From a bacterium (GTDB lineage Bacteria > CSSED10-310 > JAJRTK01): 16,951 bases of DNA. The stretch lies in assembly GCA_024278345.1 (NCBI GenBank), contig JAJRTK010000259.1, positions 1-16,951 of the forward strand, given 5' to 3'. Below are positions 4,183 to 13,852 of the stretch, piece by piece. Both the position numbers and the translations under genes were made by a program. The notes below the pieces were generated by a model. The model was not told the DNA's origin and did no database searches. It was given only the letters and a program-made list of their open reading frames with translations. The first letter of the stretch is position 1; the number at the start of each line of letters is the position of its first letter.

Positions 4183-4704
4183 ATGCTCGAAGACAAACCA
4201 ACCTACGAACGGTTTCCCATCCGGCCGGGCAAGACGTACGGCTTGATGTGCGTGGTCCCCACGGCCACTGAAGCCACGAAAATCGAAACGGAGAAACAGG
4301 TCCATGCATGGCCGGCGGCGCTCACCCGTGAGCTGGCTCTCTTCGTGTTGACCCTGGTGATCCTAAGCGTGGTGGCGCTTCTCTTCAACGCACCTCTGGA
4401 GGAACCGGCCAGCAGACTCCATCCACCCAACCCGGCCAAGGCTCCATGGTATTTCCTGGGGCTCCAGGAGATGGTGGCCTATTCGGCATTTTGGGGGGGG
4501 ATCGGGATTCCGGGGCTCTTGGTGCTCCTGGCCTTGGCGGCACCCTACCTGGAGCGAAAACCAGGAGGCGAAGGCGTCTGGTTCCATTCCTCGCGGTCGG
4601 CGGCAAACTGGGTTTTCCTTGGCATCGTGGGGACACTCCTTGTCTTGACGGCCATCGGGACCTTCTTCCGCGGTGAAAACTGGGCTTTCGTGGTACCCTG
4701 GTAG
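4183..4704 (+). CDS. Cytochrome b/b6 C-terminal domain (subunit IV-like)
   Basis: 173 aa from the ATG at 4183 (AGGGG just upstream); an in-frame ATG at 4141 lies inside the cytochrome b gene and is unlikely. Three transmembrane helices are predicted at about 50-69, 107-121 and 143-161. The Qo-site loop normally reading PEWY reads APWY (87-90) within KAPWYFLGLQE, so the catalytic Glu is not at its usual place; E96 of LQE is the nearest acid. It completes the split cytochrome b begun by the preceding gene. The extra N-terminal ~45 polar residues are longer than in plant subunit IV. Confidence 0.88.
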   Translation: MLEDKPTYERFPIRPGKTYGLMCVVPTATEATKIETEKQVHAWPAALTRELALFVLTLVILSVVALLFNAPLEEPASRLHPPNPAKAPWYFLGLQEMVAYSAFWGGIGIPGLLVLLALAAPYLERKPGGEGVWFHSSRSAANWVFLGIVGTLLVLTAIGTFFRGENWAFVVPW

Positions 4705-4714
4705 GAGAAAGAGC

Positions 4715-6415
4715 ATGAGAATTAGCTTTGCATTGCTCCTTTCAAGTCTGGCTCTCATCGTGGTGGTGGTCGTGGTGATCGCGCAATCCACCGACGAGGA
4801 GTGGCGAGACTATCAGCTCGAGTACCTGGACCAGGCGATGGGCCGGGCCTCCAGTGACACGGTGCGCCAAGCCCTGGCAGCCAGCGGCCTCGAGATCCAA
4901 CAAGACACTCTGGCGGGGTTTGAGGATACCACTCGAATTGATCGGTGCCGCACCTGCCACATGGCCATTGACGACCCACAGTTTGAAAATGGTCAGCACC
5001 CCTTGAAGACCCACCCGAAGATGGCCGGCCACTCCTTCAGCGAGTTTGGCTGCACGGTTTGCCACGCGGGTAACGGTCGAGGGCTCACCACCTACGACGC
5101 CCACGGGGATGACCATTTCTGGCCGGAGCCCCTCCTGGCGGCTCCCTATATCGAATCGTCCTGCGCACGGTGCCACCCGGAGCCCTACCTGGACGAGACG
5201 CCCCATCTGCGGCGGGGTCGCAAGCTTTTCGAGAAATACGCCTGCGTGGGGTGCCATACGATCCGCGGTGTCTCACGGGGAAAACTGGGGCCCGACCTCA
5301 CGGACGTGGGAACCAACTTTAAGATCGATTATCTCACGGAATCCATCGTCGATCCGAAAGCCAACGCCATCACCTCGATCATGCCGAAGTTTGTCATGGC
5401 ACAAAAGGACGTGCAAGCTCTGACGGTCTTCCTCAAAAGCCGCAGGGGTCGCCAGATGTTCGAGGATCCCGTGACACTCCGGATCAAGACGAAAGAGTGG
5501 GAACAGGAAGCCGCACGGGAGCTCTCGGAAACCCCCGACGCGGGCCAAATGGCGTTTGACGAACGATTCTGTGCCTCCTGCCACAAACTTGGCCAAGAAG
5601 ATGGGAAGCTGGCTCCGGATCTCTCCTTCCAAGGGCTGCTCCGGGAGAAGGAGTACATAGTAGCCCACCTGAGCGACCCCAGACGCCACACCTACGGCTC
5701 CAACATGCCGACGTTCTTCATGTCGGAAAGCGAAAAGAAGGCCATCGCCATCTATTTGACGTCGTTGACGGCGTTCGATCTTCCCGCAGCCCCCAAGGAG
5801 CAGTACGCCCTGCTCTGTTCCCGGTGCCACGGAGAGGAGGGCGCCGGCGACGGTCTTATCGCCGAAAACCTGCTTCCCAGGCCCCGTCAGTTTACCAATG
5901 CCAAGTTCTTCAACTGGCTTCCGGAGGATCGCGCTTGGAACGACATCGCCAACGGCGTTCCAGGAACGGCGATGCCTCCTTTCAAGAAGATCTTGAGCGA
6001 ATCTCAGGTCCAGGAGCTCTTTTCCTGGGTCCGGAGCGAGTTCCTCAAGAGTGATCGGAAAAAGTGGAAACGGCCACGGCCGAAAACCGGCGCCAATCCG
6101 GTGGCCTATTCGCCGGAAAGTATCAAGCGAGGACACGACGCGTTCCAGTTGCGCTGTTACGGCTGTCATGGGCGGATCGGGGACGGGAACGGACCCAACG
6201 CCGTGGACATGCTTCCGCGGCCTCGAAACCTGATGAGTACGGCATTCATGGGCGCGGTGACCGACCAGCGCCTCTTCGAATCGATCACCTATGGAATCGT
6301 CGGCACGGGGATGCCGGCATGGGACTATCTACCCAAAACGCAGCGCTGGGATTTGGTGAACTTCGTACGAAGCCTTTCGAAGACTGGCCCTGCGGCGCCT
6401 AGCAACGGGAAATAA
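4715..6415 (+). CDS. Membrane-anchored heptahaem cytochrome c, bc-complex partner
   Basis: 566 aa from the ATG at 4715 (AGGAGA upstream). An N-terminal hydrophobic anchor (about 5-22) is followed by seven CxxCH motifs at C78, C113, C150, C177, C286, C368 and C481. The first three are close together with no obvious Met ligand, suggesting a trihaem module. The last four each start a class-I-like monohaem domain with a likely Met ligand (M223, M331, M420, M533, in SIMP, NMP, AMP and GMP contexts). It replaces cytochrome c1/f and should receive electrons from the Rieske centre in the periplasm. Because the downstream oxidase lacks CcoP haems, its terminal domains may donate directly to CcoO; that is inference. 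Confidence 0.9.
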   Translation: MRISFALLLSSLALIVVVVVVIAQSTDEEWRDYQLEYLDQAMGRASSDTVRQALAASGLEIQQDTLAGFEDTTRIDRCRTCHMAIDDPQFENGQHPLKTHPKMAGHSFSEFGCTVCHAGNGRGLTTYDAHGDDHFWPEPLLAAPYIESSCARCHPEPYLDETPHLRRGRKLFEKYACVGCHTIRGVSRGKLGPDLTDVGTNFKIDYLTESIVDPKANAITSIMPKFVMAQKDVQALTVFLKSRRGRQMFEDPVTLRIKTKEWEQEAARELSETPDAGQMAFDERFCASCHKLGQEDGKLAPDLSFQGLLREKEYIVAHLSDPRRHTYGSNMPTFFMSESEKKAIAIYLTSLTAFDLPAAPKEQYALLCSRCHGEEGAGDGLIAENLLPRPRQFTNAKFFNWLPEDRAWNDIANGVPGTAMPPFKKILSESQVQELFSWVRSEFLKSDRKKWKRPRPKTGANPVAYSPESIKRGHDAFQLRCYGCHGRIGDGNGPNAVDMLPRPRNLMSTAFMGAVTDQRLFESITYGIVGTGMPAWDYLPKTQRWDLVNFVRSLSKTGPAAPSNGK

Positions 6416-9988: not shown

Positions 9989-10315
9989 ATGCGCGGCCTG
10001 TTGATCGGTGTCATGCTCTTTTTCTTTGGCCTCATGATCGTCGTCTGGATCGCCTCGATCCACGCGGACCCGAAAATGATCGTGGTGCCGGAAGGAGAAA
10101 TGTCCATGCCGCTCCCTCCTCCCAAAACCGCCCCAAAAAACTCTCTTGGGACTGAATCTGGTTCAAATGCTTTCCTCTCTTTGGGTTGTACTCCGCTCCC
10201 ATCGGGCGCCGTCCGACACCCGCTACTCGCCTCTCTCCACCCTCAAAAACTTCCTGACAGAAGAGCAAGAAAGAGTGCCACTACCGGTAACAACCGCCTA
10301 GAAGGAACCAAATGA
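9989..10315 (+). CDS. Small single-TM protein in the CcoH (FixH) position
   Basis: 108 aa. Residues 1-22 form one hydrophobic helix, followed by ASIHADPKMIVVPEGEM and then a Pro/Ser-rich, low-information tail. Position between ccoG and the TauE/SafE gene is that of ccoH/fixH, and the helix plus short extracytoplasmic stretch is compatible, but I do not see a clear FixH domain. The stop overlaps the next start (ATGA), which supports translation of the full frame. The tail may be a drifted or frameshifted C-terminus. Function is uncertain. Confidence 0.5.
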   Translation: MRGLLIGVMLFFFGLMIVVWIASIHADPKMIVVPEGEMSMPLPPPKTAPKNSLGTESGSNAFLSLGCTPLPSGAVRHPLLASLHPQKLPDRRARKSATTGNNRLEGTK

Positions 10316-11304
10316 CAGCCATTATTGGATCGGCATTCCTCGTAGGTCTCCTGGGCTCCGTCCACTGCATCGGCATGTGTGGCCCGCTGGCTATCGCCAT
10401 CGGCGCGGGCGGGCGGAATCGGGCCAGTGGGCTGTGGCTCTATCTAGTTGGAAAAGGCACCACCTACATGGTTCTCGGGCTGGCTGCGGGGGTCGTGGGC
10501 AGCGCCTTCGGCAATCCCGCACTGGGCAAAACGGGGATCGCCGGGCTGGCAATCCTTACCGGCATCGCGATGATCGTGCTTGGACTGATCCACGGCTGGA
10601 AGCTCTGGCCCGCCGCAAGACGCTCCCCGAACCATCCAACCTCAACCGGTGGAGCACGACCTGCAGGACCCGGACAACCTGGCCGGAGAAAGGGAGCCAT
10701 CTCAATCCTCATGGGCGCTGCCCTCCGTTCCCGAAGCCGGTTCAAGCCATACGCGGCTGGCATTTTGACCGGCCTCCTGCCCTGCGGCCTGGTCTATGCC
10801 ATGGTGGCACAAGCTGCCTCCGCCGGTTCCCCTCTGCCAGCCCTCCTTGTCATGGCGGCCTTCGGGCTGGGAACAGCTCCGGCCCTCTGGGCGGTAGGGT
10901 GGTCCAGCCGCTTCATGAGCAACCGCGCCCGCGCACTTGGGGACAAGGGGTATCCACCTAAGCCGGGACACGCAACAAAACCAAAAAAAAGACGCGCAGC
11001 GTACAAAAACGTGGGTCCAGGGAGCGCGCTCCCTGGTGGGTGCAGGGCGAAGCCCTGCCAGGGGACGGGGGATGGAATCCCCGGACCACCTACGGGTAAC
11101 GCGCGGCGTGACCCGCCGAGCGATAGCGAGGCGTTGCCCGGACGCTTGCGATTCCACAGTCCTGGGAATGTCCCGCCTTGCGTGGATACCCAGGACAAGC
11201 TGGCAGCCGGTGGAGTCATCCTCATGGGAGCTCTGGCTATCTGGCGCGGCCTCCACCTGGTCTTGTCGTCTCCCGCCGTCCAATCCTGCCATCATGGCGG
11301 CTGA
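10312..11304 (+). CDS. TauE/SafE (DsbD_2-like) membrane protein of cbb3 assembly, carrying an in-frame insertion
   Basis: 330 aa. The N-terminus has the metal-site motif HCIGMCGP at 18-25, and the C-terminus ends SCHHGG. Membrane helices are at about 5-30, 43-62, 74-93, 141-160, 165-187, and a last one at about 299-315. Such proteins ('TauE/SafE' or UreH-like) are frequent in cco clusters and are thought to handle copper. Between ALGDK and LAAGG lie 84 extra codons encoded by a MITE-like element (10948-11192 plus a 7-bp duplication). Without it the protein would be 246 aa, a normal family length, with an uninterrupted final helix. Whether the extended protein still works is unknown; the insert would lie in the loop before the last helix. 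It overlaps ccoI by 11 bp. Confidence 0.8.
   Translation: MTAIIGSAFLVGLLGSVHCIGMCGPLAIAIGAGGRNRASGLWLYLVGKGTTYMVLGLAAGVVGSAFGNPALGKTGIAGLAILTGIAMIVLGLIHGWKLWPAARRSPNHPTSTGGARPAGPGQPGRRKGAISILMGAALRSRSRFKPYAAGILTGLLPCGLVYAMVAQAASAGSPLPALLVMAAFGLGTAPALWAVGWSSRFMSNRARALGDKGYPPKPGHATKPKKRRAAYKNVGPGSALPGGCRAKPCQGTGDGIPGPPTGNARRDPPSDSEALPGRLRFHSPGNVPPCVDTQDKLAAGGVILMGALAIWRGLHLVLSSPAVQSCHHGG
10941..10947. repeat. Target-site duplication, left copy (GGACAAG)
   Basis: GGACAAG immediately precedes the left inverted repeat and recurs at 11193-11199, one base after the right inverted repeat. Joining the two flanks through one copy gives R-A-L-G-D-K-L-A-A-G-G in frame, the expected run into the last helix of the host protein. 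Confidence 0.75.
10948..11192. mobile_element. 245-bp MITE-like element with terminal inverted repeats
   Basis: Terminal inverted repeats are 10948-10970 (beginning GGGTATCCAC and ending CGGGACA) and 11169-11191 (beginning TGTCCCG and ending GTGGATACCC), matching at 20 of 23 positions. The 7-bp sequence GGACAAG flanks the element on both sides (10941-10947 and 11193-11199), as a target-site duplication would. Inside are a perfect 20-bp palindrome (11017-11036), a hairpin GCAGGGC-GAA-GCCCTGC (11042-11058) and a hairpin GGGGAT-GGA-ATCCCC (11068-11082). No transposase is encoded. The element plus duplication adds 252 bp and leaves at least two forward frames open. Confidence 0.8.
11193..11199. 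repeat. Target-site duplication, right copy (GGACAAG)
   Basis: Second copy of the 7-mer at 10941-10947. A single A (11192) separates it from the right inverted repeat. The exact duplication could instead be 6 bp (GGACAA) with 24-bp repeats whose outermost base differs. Confidence 0.75.
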
Positions 11305-13852
11305 ACCCGATCTGGCCCCCCCCGCGCCCAACGGGAAGCTCTGTGAGCTGTGCGGCGGGGCGCGGCCGAGCTCCAGACCACGATATTGCTGCGACGGCTG
11401 CATGCGAGTGGCGGAGATCCTGGCCGCATCGGGCTACACCGGCGAAGCGAAGCATAGCGGAATCTGGAAACAGGCAGCCCTGGCGGGATTGGTCCCCAGA
11501 AGAGCGGATCCCGGCATGAAGCTGGGCGCCTCGACAGAGCCGGGAAGCGCGGACCCTACCACCTACCGATGGAAGCGGACCTCAACGCAAGAAAAAAAGA
11601 GGGTGAATCAAGCTTCCCACCCTCGGCGGAAACCAGATTTCGGTGTTGAGAGCGGGCCAACGCCGCCACTTCGGCCCATTCAGCGTCAAAAACAGGAAGT
11701 CTCCTTCGATCTGGAAGGCCTCTGGTGCCCATCCTGTGCCTGGCTCATCGAGGCAACCCTGGTGCGCCTCCCCGGCGTAGCCCGGGCCAGATCGAGCTTC
11801 CTGACGGAATCGCTCCACGTCCTTTTCGATCCCAGCGCCATCGGGCGAAACGACCTGGTCCGCCAGATCGAGCAACTCGGCTACCGCGTAGTCCACGGGC
11901 AAGAGAAGAGCCCTGTCCGAGGCCCTCTCCTGCGCTTTGGCATCGCCGCCTTTTTCACGGCGAACGTCATGATGCTCTCTTATTCCTTCTACGCCGTTCG
12001 CTGGGATGCTGCCCCCCAAGCCCTGGAGGCACTGCTTCCGTGGATTCTCGCGGCCCTTTCAGCGCCAGTGGTCTTCGGGTGCGGTTACCCCATCCTCCGG
12101 CGTGCCTGGCTGGCCCTCAGAGCCCGAGCGGTGACCATGGATACACTCATCGCACTGGGTTCAGTCTCGGCCTTCCTTTTCAGCACAGCGGCGGTGCTCC
12201 GCGGGAATCAGGATGTCTACTTTGACGGAGCCTGTGCGCTCATCACTTTCTGGCTTCTTGGACGCGTCCTGGAACAATCGGCTTTCGCCCGAGCCACGTG
12301 CGTCGGCCAAGCGGTTCGGCGGCTCCTTCCCCGCAAGGCCCGAAAACTGGTGGATTCCCAGACCGTCTGGGTCTCCACGTCACAGTTGAAACCGGGAGAC
12401 AGAATCCAGGTCGCCCCTGGGGAACGGATCCCCGTGGACGCCCGAGTGCTCAGCGAGACCGGCCGGATCTCCACCGCCGTCATCGACGGCGAACCGCGGC
12501 CTCGGCTAGTTCAGGCCGGGGCCCGGGTTCAGGGCGGATCGGTCTGCGGCGAGACGCGGCTGGAGATGGAAGTCCTGGCTTGCGCGGACAAATCTATGCT
12601 CGCGAAGATCGCGGAACACGTGGCCCGGGCTTCGGGCAAGCCCCGGGAAGGCGTCGATCTGGCCGACGCCCTGGCTCGCCTCTTTCTGCCGCTGGTTCTG
12701 GTCCTTTCAGCGGTCACGGGAGCAGCGATGCTCGGCTCGGGCTCGAGTTTGGCCGCTGCATTCGAGAGGGCCCTGAGCGTGCTTGTGGTCTCCTGCCCGT
12801 GCGCTCTGGGAATCGCTGCTCCTCTGGCCCGAGTGATAGCCGCGGGAGCCCTGGCCAGGCGCGGCGTCATCGTCCGGCGGGAGGATGCCCTCGAAGACCT
12901 GGCAACCGCTGAATGGGTGGCGTTCGACAAGACGGGAACTCTCACCGAAGGGCGCCTCGACCTCCAAAGAATCGAGGTTCAGGGCGCAACAAAGCAAGAG
13001 GTTCTCCATTGGGCATCCGTCCTGGAAACGGCATCGGGGCATCCCATCGCCATGGCCCTCCGGCGGGCGGAGGAAAAGGACCTCTCTTCTCATAATGGCC
13101 ACCTCTCACCGCACACTTCAGTGCCCGGAAAAGTCCTGGGCAGCCGTGGAGTCACCGGTTTCGTCCATGGCCACCGGGCACTCCTGGGCCGGCCACAATG
13201 GGTTGAAGACCTCATGGGCCCGATCCCCGGCAACCTGGAACAAGATCTCTCAGAAGAGCGAAGCCGCGGCAGGACCGCCATCCTCTTCGCCACGGGAGAT
13301 GGAACGTGGGGCCTCTTAGCATTCGGGGATTCCATTCGACCCGAAGCCCGGGCCACCGTCGATGCACTCCGGAGTGCCGGATTGCGGACCGCCATCATAT
13401 CCGGAGACTCCCGGGAAGCCACCGAAGCATGCGGCAGAAGCGTCGGCGCCGACTTCGCCCTGGGAGACCACCTTCCAGAGGAAAAGGCCCAGTGGCTCGA
13501 AACTCAAGAATCGGAGAGCGGCCGGACGCCGATCTTCGTGGGAGACGGAATCAACGACGCCCCGGCTCTGGCGGCTTCGGTGGGGATCGCCGTAGCCAGC
13601 GGCGCCGACTTCGCCAGGGAAACCGCGGACATCCTTTTCGCGGAAAAGGGACTGCAAGAGATCGTCCCACTCATCCGAACGGCTGGGATGATGCGCTCCA
13701 TCATCCGGCAGAATCTGATCTGGGCGGCGCTCTACAACGCCGTGGCAATCCCCGCCGCCATTTCTGGACTTCTGACCCCGGTCTTCGCGGCGGGAGCCAT
13801 GGTGACCAGCGGCCTTTTGGTGACCTTCAACGCTCTCCGCCTCCGTCCGTGA
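11294..13852 (+). CDS. ccoI: Cbb3 copper-transporting P1B-type ATPase CcoI
   Basis: 852 aa from the ATG at 11294; the frame stays open upstream only because it runs through the MITE-like element. Domains in order: a Cys-rich metal-binding domain (C17, C20, C32, C33, C36); a ~75-residue Pro/Lys-rich linker; an HMA domain with CPSC at 145-148; transmembrane helices; an actuator domain whose TGE loop reads DGE (398-400); the ion site CPC at 501-503; phosphorylation site DKTGT at 545-549; HP at 583-584; and GDGINDAP at 750-757. All point to the FixI/CcoI group that moves Cu(I) outward for delivery to CuB of CcoN. Its start overlaps the preceding gene by 11 bp, and it ends the operon. Confidence 0.92.
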   Translation: MAAEPDLAPPAPNGKLCELCGGARPSSRPRYCCDGCMRVAEILAASGYTGEAKHSGIWKQAALAGLVPRRADPGMKLGASTEPGSADPTTYRWKRTSTQEKKRVNQASHPRRKPDFGVESGPTPPLRPIQRQKQEVSFDLEGLWCPSCAWLIEATLVRLPGVARARSSFLTESLHVLFDPSAIGRNDLVRQIEQLGYRVVHGQEKSPVRGPLLRFGIAAFFTANVMMLSYSFYAVRWDAAPQALEALLPWILAALSAPVVFGCGYPILRRAWLALRARAVTMDTLIALGSVSAFLFSTAAVLRGNQDVYFDGACALITFWLLGRVLEQSAFARATCVGQAVRRLLPRKARKLVDSQTVWVSTSQLKPGDRIQVAPGERIPVDARVLSETGRISTAVIDGEPRPRLVQAGARVQGGSVCGETRLEMEVLACADKSMLAKIAEHVARASGKPREGVDLADALARLFLPLVLVLSAVTGAAMLGSGSSLAAAFERALSVLVVSCPCALGIAAPLARVIAAGALARRGVIVRREDALEDLATAEWVAFDKTGTLTEGRLDLQRIEVQGATKQEVLHWASVLETASGHPIAMALRRAEEKDLSSHNGHLSPHTSVPGKVLGSRGVTGFVHGHRALLGRPQWVEDLMGPIPGNLEQDLSEERSRGRTAILFATGDGTWGLLAFGDSIRPEARATVDALRSAGLRTAIISGDSREATEACGRSVGADFALGDHLPEEKAQWLETQESESGRTPIFVGDGINDAPALAASVGIAVASGADFARETADILFAEKGLQEIVPLIRTAGMMRSIIRQNLIWAALYNAVAIPAAISGLLTPVFAAGAMVTSGLLVTFNALRLRP

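Follow-up and report, generated by a model that had tools for sequence, protein, structure and literature searches.

A MITE family with copies lying in frame within conserved genes of an uncultured bacterium, including a membrane protein gene of its cbb3 oxidase cluster

So far, the in-frame invasion of protein genes by short mobile repeats has mostly been seen as a speciality of Rickettsia. The pneumococcal BOX elements, whose interior is a variable set of hairpin modules like that of the family described here, are regarded as essentially intergenic. The Rickettsia palindromic elements (RPEs) have been described as the most extreme example of MITEs fused in frame to genes (PMC10969869). In-frame cases have also been listed for the ERIC, YPAL, and Correia elements; among the forms of the Correia element, only the stop-poor 107-bp one is common in genes (PMC2229807). 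The Coxiella QMITE1 and QMITE2 are MITE families with about 50 copies and direct repeats, and some of these copies lie in frame within ORFs (PMC5896051). The original prediction regarded such insertions as rare outside Rickettsia. The RPEs do show the phenomenon, but so do the ERIC, Yersinia YPAL, and Neisseria elements, and it is not limited to Rickettsia (PMC2229807, PMC10969869).

The family described here shares several features with these systems. Like the RPEs, its copies are small hairpin-rich repeats, which lie in frame in many unrelated genes, add tens of residues, and are tolerated by the host protein (PMC10969869, PMC2229807). The RPEs are 105-150 bp long, lack a clear target duplication, and reportedly encode a peptide that is conserved; the present copies are about 170-340 bp long, carry terminal inverted repeats (TIRs) of 22-23 bp and target-site duplications (TSDs) of 8 bp without a transposase gene, use several frames, and occur in another lineage. 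On this comparison of features, the family works like the RPEs; relatedness is not claimed. ERIC/RU-1, YPAL/RU-2, and Correia are likewise bacterial MITEs with TSDs, mostly intergenic and with some in-frame fusions (PMC2229807). The present family differs from them in its ends, target duplication, and size, and also in that it hits conserved multidomain enzymes, one of them twice. In the Coxiella QMITEs, functional genes are hit at their 3' ends, and the mid-ORF in-frame cases lie in hypothetical proteins (PMC5896051). Thus, the family is a new MITE family, whereas the phenomenon itself is already known from other elements. The family stands out from routine cases by its lineage, by the range of conserved genes that it enters, by being read in several frames, and by its orientation bias.

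The element was studied in a stretch of 16,951 nucleotides (the window), where the following features were identified:

10312..11304, + strand: host gene, encoding a DsbD_2/SafE-type six-helix membrane protein of the cbb3 oxidase cluster (ORF, PF13386, orthologues)
10940..10947, unstranded: left copy of the TSD, GGGACAAG (sequence; 8-bp duplications at other copies)
10948..11191, + strand: MITE copy of 244 bp, forward orientation, four of six frames open
10948..10970, + strand: left TIR, 23 nt, the same end in hundreds of copies
10974..10991, + strand: A-rich module, T-rich on the opposite strand (alignment), absent from the reverse in-frame copy L061:4011
11017..11036, unstranded: internal hairpin module CCAGGGAGCGCGCTCCCTGG (self-complementary match; conserved pairs)
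11042..11058, unstranded: internal hairpin module GCAGGGCGAAGCCCTGC, with pairs conserved in 16 copies
11169..11191, - strand: right TIR, 23 nt, pairing with the left end
11192..11199, unstranded: right copy of the TSD, AGGACAAG, 7/8 identical to the left copy
11294..13852, + strand: downstream gene, CcoI-type heavy-metal P-type ATPase (Pfam E1-E2_ATPase, HMA, Hydrolase)

The inverted repeats of the window copy match at 20 of 23 positions (87% complementary), as was noticed originally. The TIR pattern, with up to three mismatches allowed, occurs twice in the whole window, at the two ends of the element, against 0.01 matches expected. The ends of the family are GGGTATCCAC...GTGGATACCC. The 7-bp direct repeat GGACAAG that was noticed originally is present on both sides (10941-10947 and 11193-11199). 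However, since other copies have 8-bp duplications, the target site is better read as 8 bp with one mismatch. The net insertion of 244 + 8 = 252 bp, or 84 codons, is free of stops in the host frame, and the ORF at 10312-11304 bears out the earlier claim to this effect. The insert had been described as open in two frames; the openness is real and extends to four of the six, against a mean of 1.0 in shuffled sequences (P = 0.003). Rfam models had no match in 10301-11800.

The host ORF matches PF13386 (DsbD_2) at residues 8-208 with an E value of 4e-39. Its predicted product has 330 residues with the insert and 246 residues without it. The gene lies in a cytochrome cluster with the order bc-complex genes, ccoN, ccoG, host gene, and CcoI-type ATPase gene, the last two of which share 11 bp where the ATPase gene starts and the host gene ends. 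The ccoN and ccoG assignments are based on TIGR00780 and TIGR02745, respectively, both with matches below the model cut-off. Between cytochrome b and ccoN in this joined bc/cbb3 cluster lies a gene (4673-6415) for a cytochrome c protein of the multi-haem type, in which several CxxCH motifs occur.

Orthologues of the host gene were taken from beside ccoN in named genomes and from further genomes. The 84 residues are absent from all of the true orthologues in one alignment and from the 15 in another (30-45% identical), so the reading of this region as an insertion stands. The closest orthologue (L158, 45% identical) runs uninterrupted across the site: its ...RVWGERLAAATVIVMGLVTTWRG... aligns with ...RALGD-KLAAGGVILMGALAIWRG... 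around the insert in the host protein. This supports the earlier observation that the protein rejoins cleanly at 246 residues once the element is removed. Downstream of the insert, the final helix and the histidine tail at the C-terminus match the orthologues, which indicates that the host frame resumes correctly. An AlphaFold2 model built on the orthologue alignment placed residues 214-292 or so as a low-confidence coil between the helices 174-213 and 293-319; only this layout was used, as the mean pLDDT was 70. The model and the alignment are consistent with the original suggestion of a loop before the last helix. The site of the insert is a short loop just before the last transmembrane helix, which the element would have turned into a probably unstructured loop of 84 residues.

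The host genome comprises 6.06 Mb in 550 contigs (88% complete), and its nearest relative among the genomes compared belongs to the same phylum. For the 15-base TIR-end pattern, 366 matches were counted across the genome; its reversed control gave 2. The window element had 86 matches in its own genome from the best 40 of 576 candidates, and two other copies are 98-99% identical to it across about 245 bp. In 1.5 Mb of the genome 227 copies or fragments were counted, a partial census of contigs picked as copy-rich, whose density is therefore biased upward. Of these, 71 sit at the ends of the sequence pieces examined in this draft assembly. In forty-odd copies, both ends are present together with a duplication, typically 8 bp and sometimes 9 bp, whose sequence varies from copy to copy. 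The own-genome search thus returned the further copies expected of a mobile element, hundreds in number and many with target duplications. By its TIRs, fixed-length TSD, small size, and high copy number, the family is a MITE family (non-autonomous DNA transposons). Alignment of the copies showed a modular body, consisting of the end, an A-rich stretch, and then optional GC-rich hairpins. The hairpins show weak covariation (4 of 45 pairs). Nested copies, one inside another, also occur (L230). The element was not found in 59 other genomes, seven of them of the same phylum, and its exact TIR had no match in collections of genome contigs and viral contigs. Many contigs end in an element copy (e.g. 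C285, C263, and C67), and the repeat fragments the assembly.

The gene status of the copies was judged by a hexamer coding model. Random points fell in genes in 61% of cases and had no coding flank in 11%; for 119 copies, the corresponding values were at most 11% and 58%. The copies avoid genes about six-fold, through selection or targeting. Among the TSD-defined copies with a coding empty site, the frame was kept open in 6 of 8-10. The frame-keeping copies are that of the window, L061:4011, L075:4075, L098:2416, L101:15085, and L104:5790; L227:2437 and L248:10506 clearly break the frame, and L058 and L108 are doubtful. For non-genic copies set down at a random phase and in either orientation at random, frame keeping would be expected at a rate of 0.078, which gives P values of 5e-6 to 4e-5. 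With length alone (1/3), P rose to between 0.02 and 0.08; this statistic therefore draws its strength from freedom from stops together with length. A frame-keeping length was ruled out as a family-wide trait: the lengths of non-genic copies vary freely modulo 3, and about a third of them are multiples of three.

In the part of the genome examined, about 12 in-frame sites were found in total, spread over about ten genes besides the host gene of the window. Besides the window copy, they include:

L075: Pkinase-AAA-TPR protein
L098: DEAD helicase
L061: membrane/TPR protein
L104: methyltransferase, with a CxxC pair on each side
L116: two copies in a 1798-aa fatty acyl reductase/AMP ligase/acyltransferase, one inside the AMP-binding domain
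L110: polytopic membrane protein
L057: two partial copies in a CHASE2-cyclase
L230: tandem pair in an ApbE protein, after a likely signal peptide
L255: GT4 glycosyltransferase, N-terminal linker
L101: a further in-frame copy

The sites in L116, L110, L057, L230, and L255 were added through a wider list of open frames, with Pfam and reading of translations, and are unusable for the frame statistic. For three of them (L255, L230, and L057), which fall within linkers or near the N-terminus, it is less sure that the site was coding before the insertion. Left out of the count were two copies that lie upstream of likely starts (L116:8965 and L257:1660) and those with unclear coding flanks (L084, L088, L058, and L108). 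Each of the three forward frames of the element is used by some host, and a reverse frame by one, and a single fixed frame with a shared peptide, as in the RPEs, was thus ruled out.

These results suggest, with a probability of about 0.82, that a high-copy MITE is mobilised in trans and that its genic insertions survive mainly if the frame stays open. A transposase acting in trans would have inserted a copy into the DsbD_2/SafE-type gene. Because 252 is divisible by three and the frame has no stop, this gene still encodes the entire membrane protein; as read from the sequence, the chimeric gene would be translated into the whole protein with an 84-residue loop. Random insertion followed by purifying selection against frame-breaking copies would be the simplest mechanism. 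The low stop content of the element may help genic copies to persist, and these would be kept in whichever element frame happens to be open. We do not claim that the inserted peptide is of any advantage.

The transposase itself is inferred. The host genome (88% complete) was searched for pairs of TIRs that are separated by 0.6-4.5 kb and enclose an ORF, and no autonomous element was found. Searches for the ISKra4, DDE_Tnp_1, Transposase_mut, IS1595, and ISL3 families gave only fragments, none with the element ends; the fragments present are ISKra4-, ISL3-, IS1595-, and ISAs1-like. The ISAs1, ISL3, and IS1595 elements make duplications of about 8 bp, and any of these types might therefore be the mobilising one.

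The family might also have been shaped by life inside genes: it would be poor in stops in most frames, genes would tolerate it whichever forward frame is read, and only one orientation would persist within them; this is put forward tentatively. A related reading, which is unlikely, is that insertion into genes is what the element is adapted to, through a scarcity of stops in several frames and selection on orientation, with genes as its normal niche. Counted over both strands, ten non-redundant copies contain 60 stop triplets, about 40% fewer than the 99.5 that dinucleotide shuffling predicts, and the open frames of the window copy point the same way, but the GC-rich hairpin interior may itself account for the low stop content. 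Across copies, open frames numbered 67 in reverse and 45 in forward orientation. As for orientation, 11 of 12 assignable in-frame copies are forward, against 67:63 among intergenic copies (Fisher P of about 0.006 to 0.012, varying with the counting of sites), a post hoc observation on few sites. Here L098 was taken as forward by alignment, and L057, which is mixed, was set aside; the test based on open frames used 12/13 and 10/11. The sole reverse in-frame copy (L061:4011) has lost the A/T-rich module. A terminator in the reverse orientation was rejected as the cause of the bias, since a scan found none and the intergenic copies are unbiased. Against adaptation stand the six-fold avoidance of genes and the free variation of length outside them. 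The original proposal that the element could be adapted to landing in genes was thus not borne out: the family is stop-poor, yet its copies strongly avoid genes, and tolerance with purifying selection suffices.

It is quite improbable that the host gene is a dead or dying pseudogene, open through the element by luck. A random family copy keeps the frame about 8-16% of the time, so a single case could be due to chance, and the window copy is young, as its near-identity to other copies indicates, so that decay would not yet show. However, unrelated genes provide about a dozen sites where the frame is kept, against two that are clearly broken (L227 and L248), and the last helix and histidine-bearing tail past the insert match the orthologues. 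An assembly chimera, with unrelated flanks joined via the repeat, is hardly credible even though the repeat often breaks the assembly, since matching target duplications flank the copy and both flanks together yield one orthologous protein.

In this large genome (6 Mb), the in-frame invasion of genes comes with clear TIR and 8-bp TSD hallmarks, which make empty sites and frame statistics directly readable. The in-frame copies supply a series of natural proteins into which long random peptides would have been inserted, and these may help to show where such insertions are tolerated and whether the peptides are ever used. They are also a warning for annotation, as 60-100-residue "lineage-specific" loops may be transposons. 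If the family has indeed been shaped by genes, it would supply conserved proteins throughout the genome of this uncultured lineage with loops of 60-100 residues.

Two further repeats were observed. In L270 (contig C5, about 336-542), a related GC-rich repeat with different ends splits an ISL3 transposase ORF and leaves the frame open; a second repeat family seems to exist alongside the element. In L116 (2830-2941), a 24-bp unit, GCGCTTCGCTCGGCGGGGACGCCC, is repeated 4.7 times and abuts the in-frame copy inside the AMP-binding domain, a pattern that looks like the amplification of a hairpin module.
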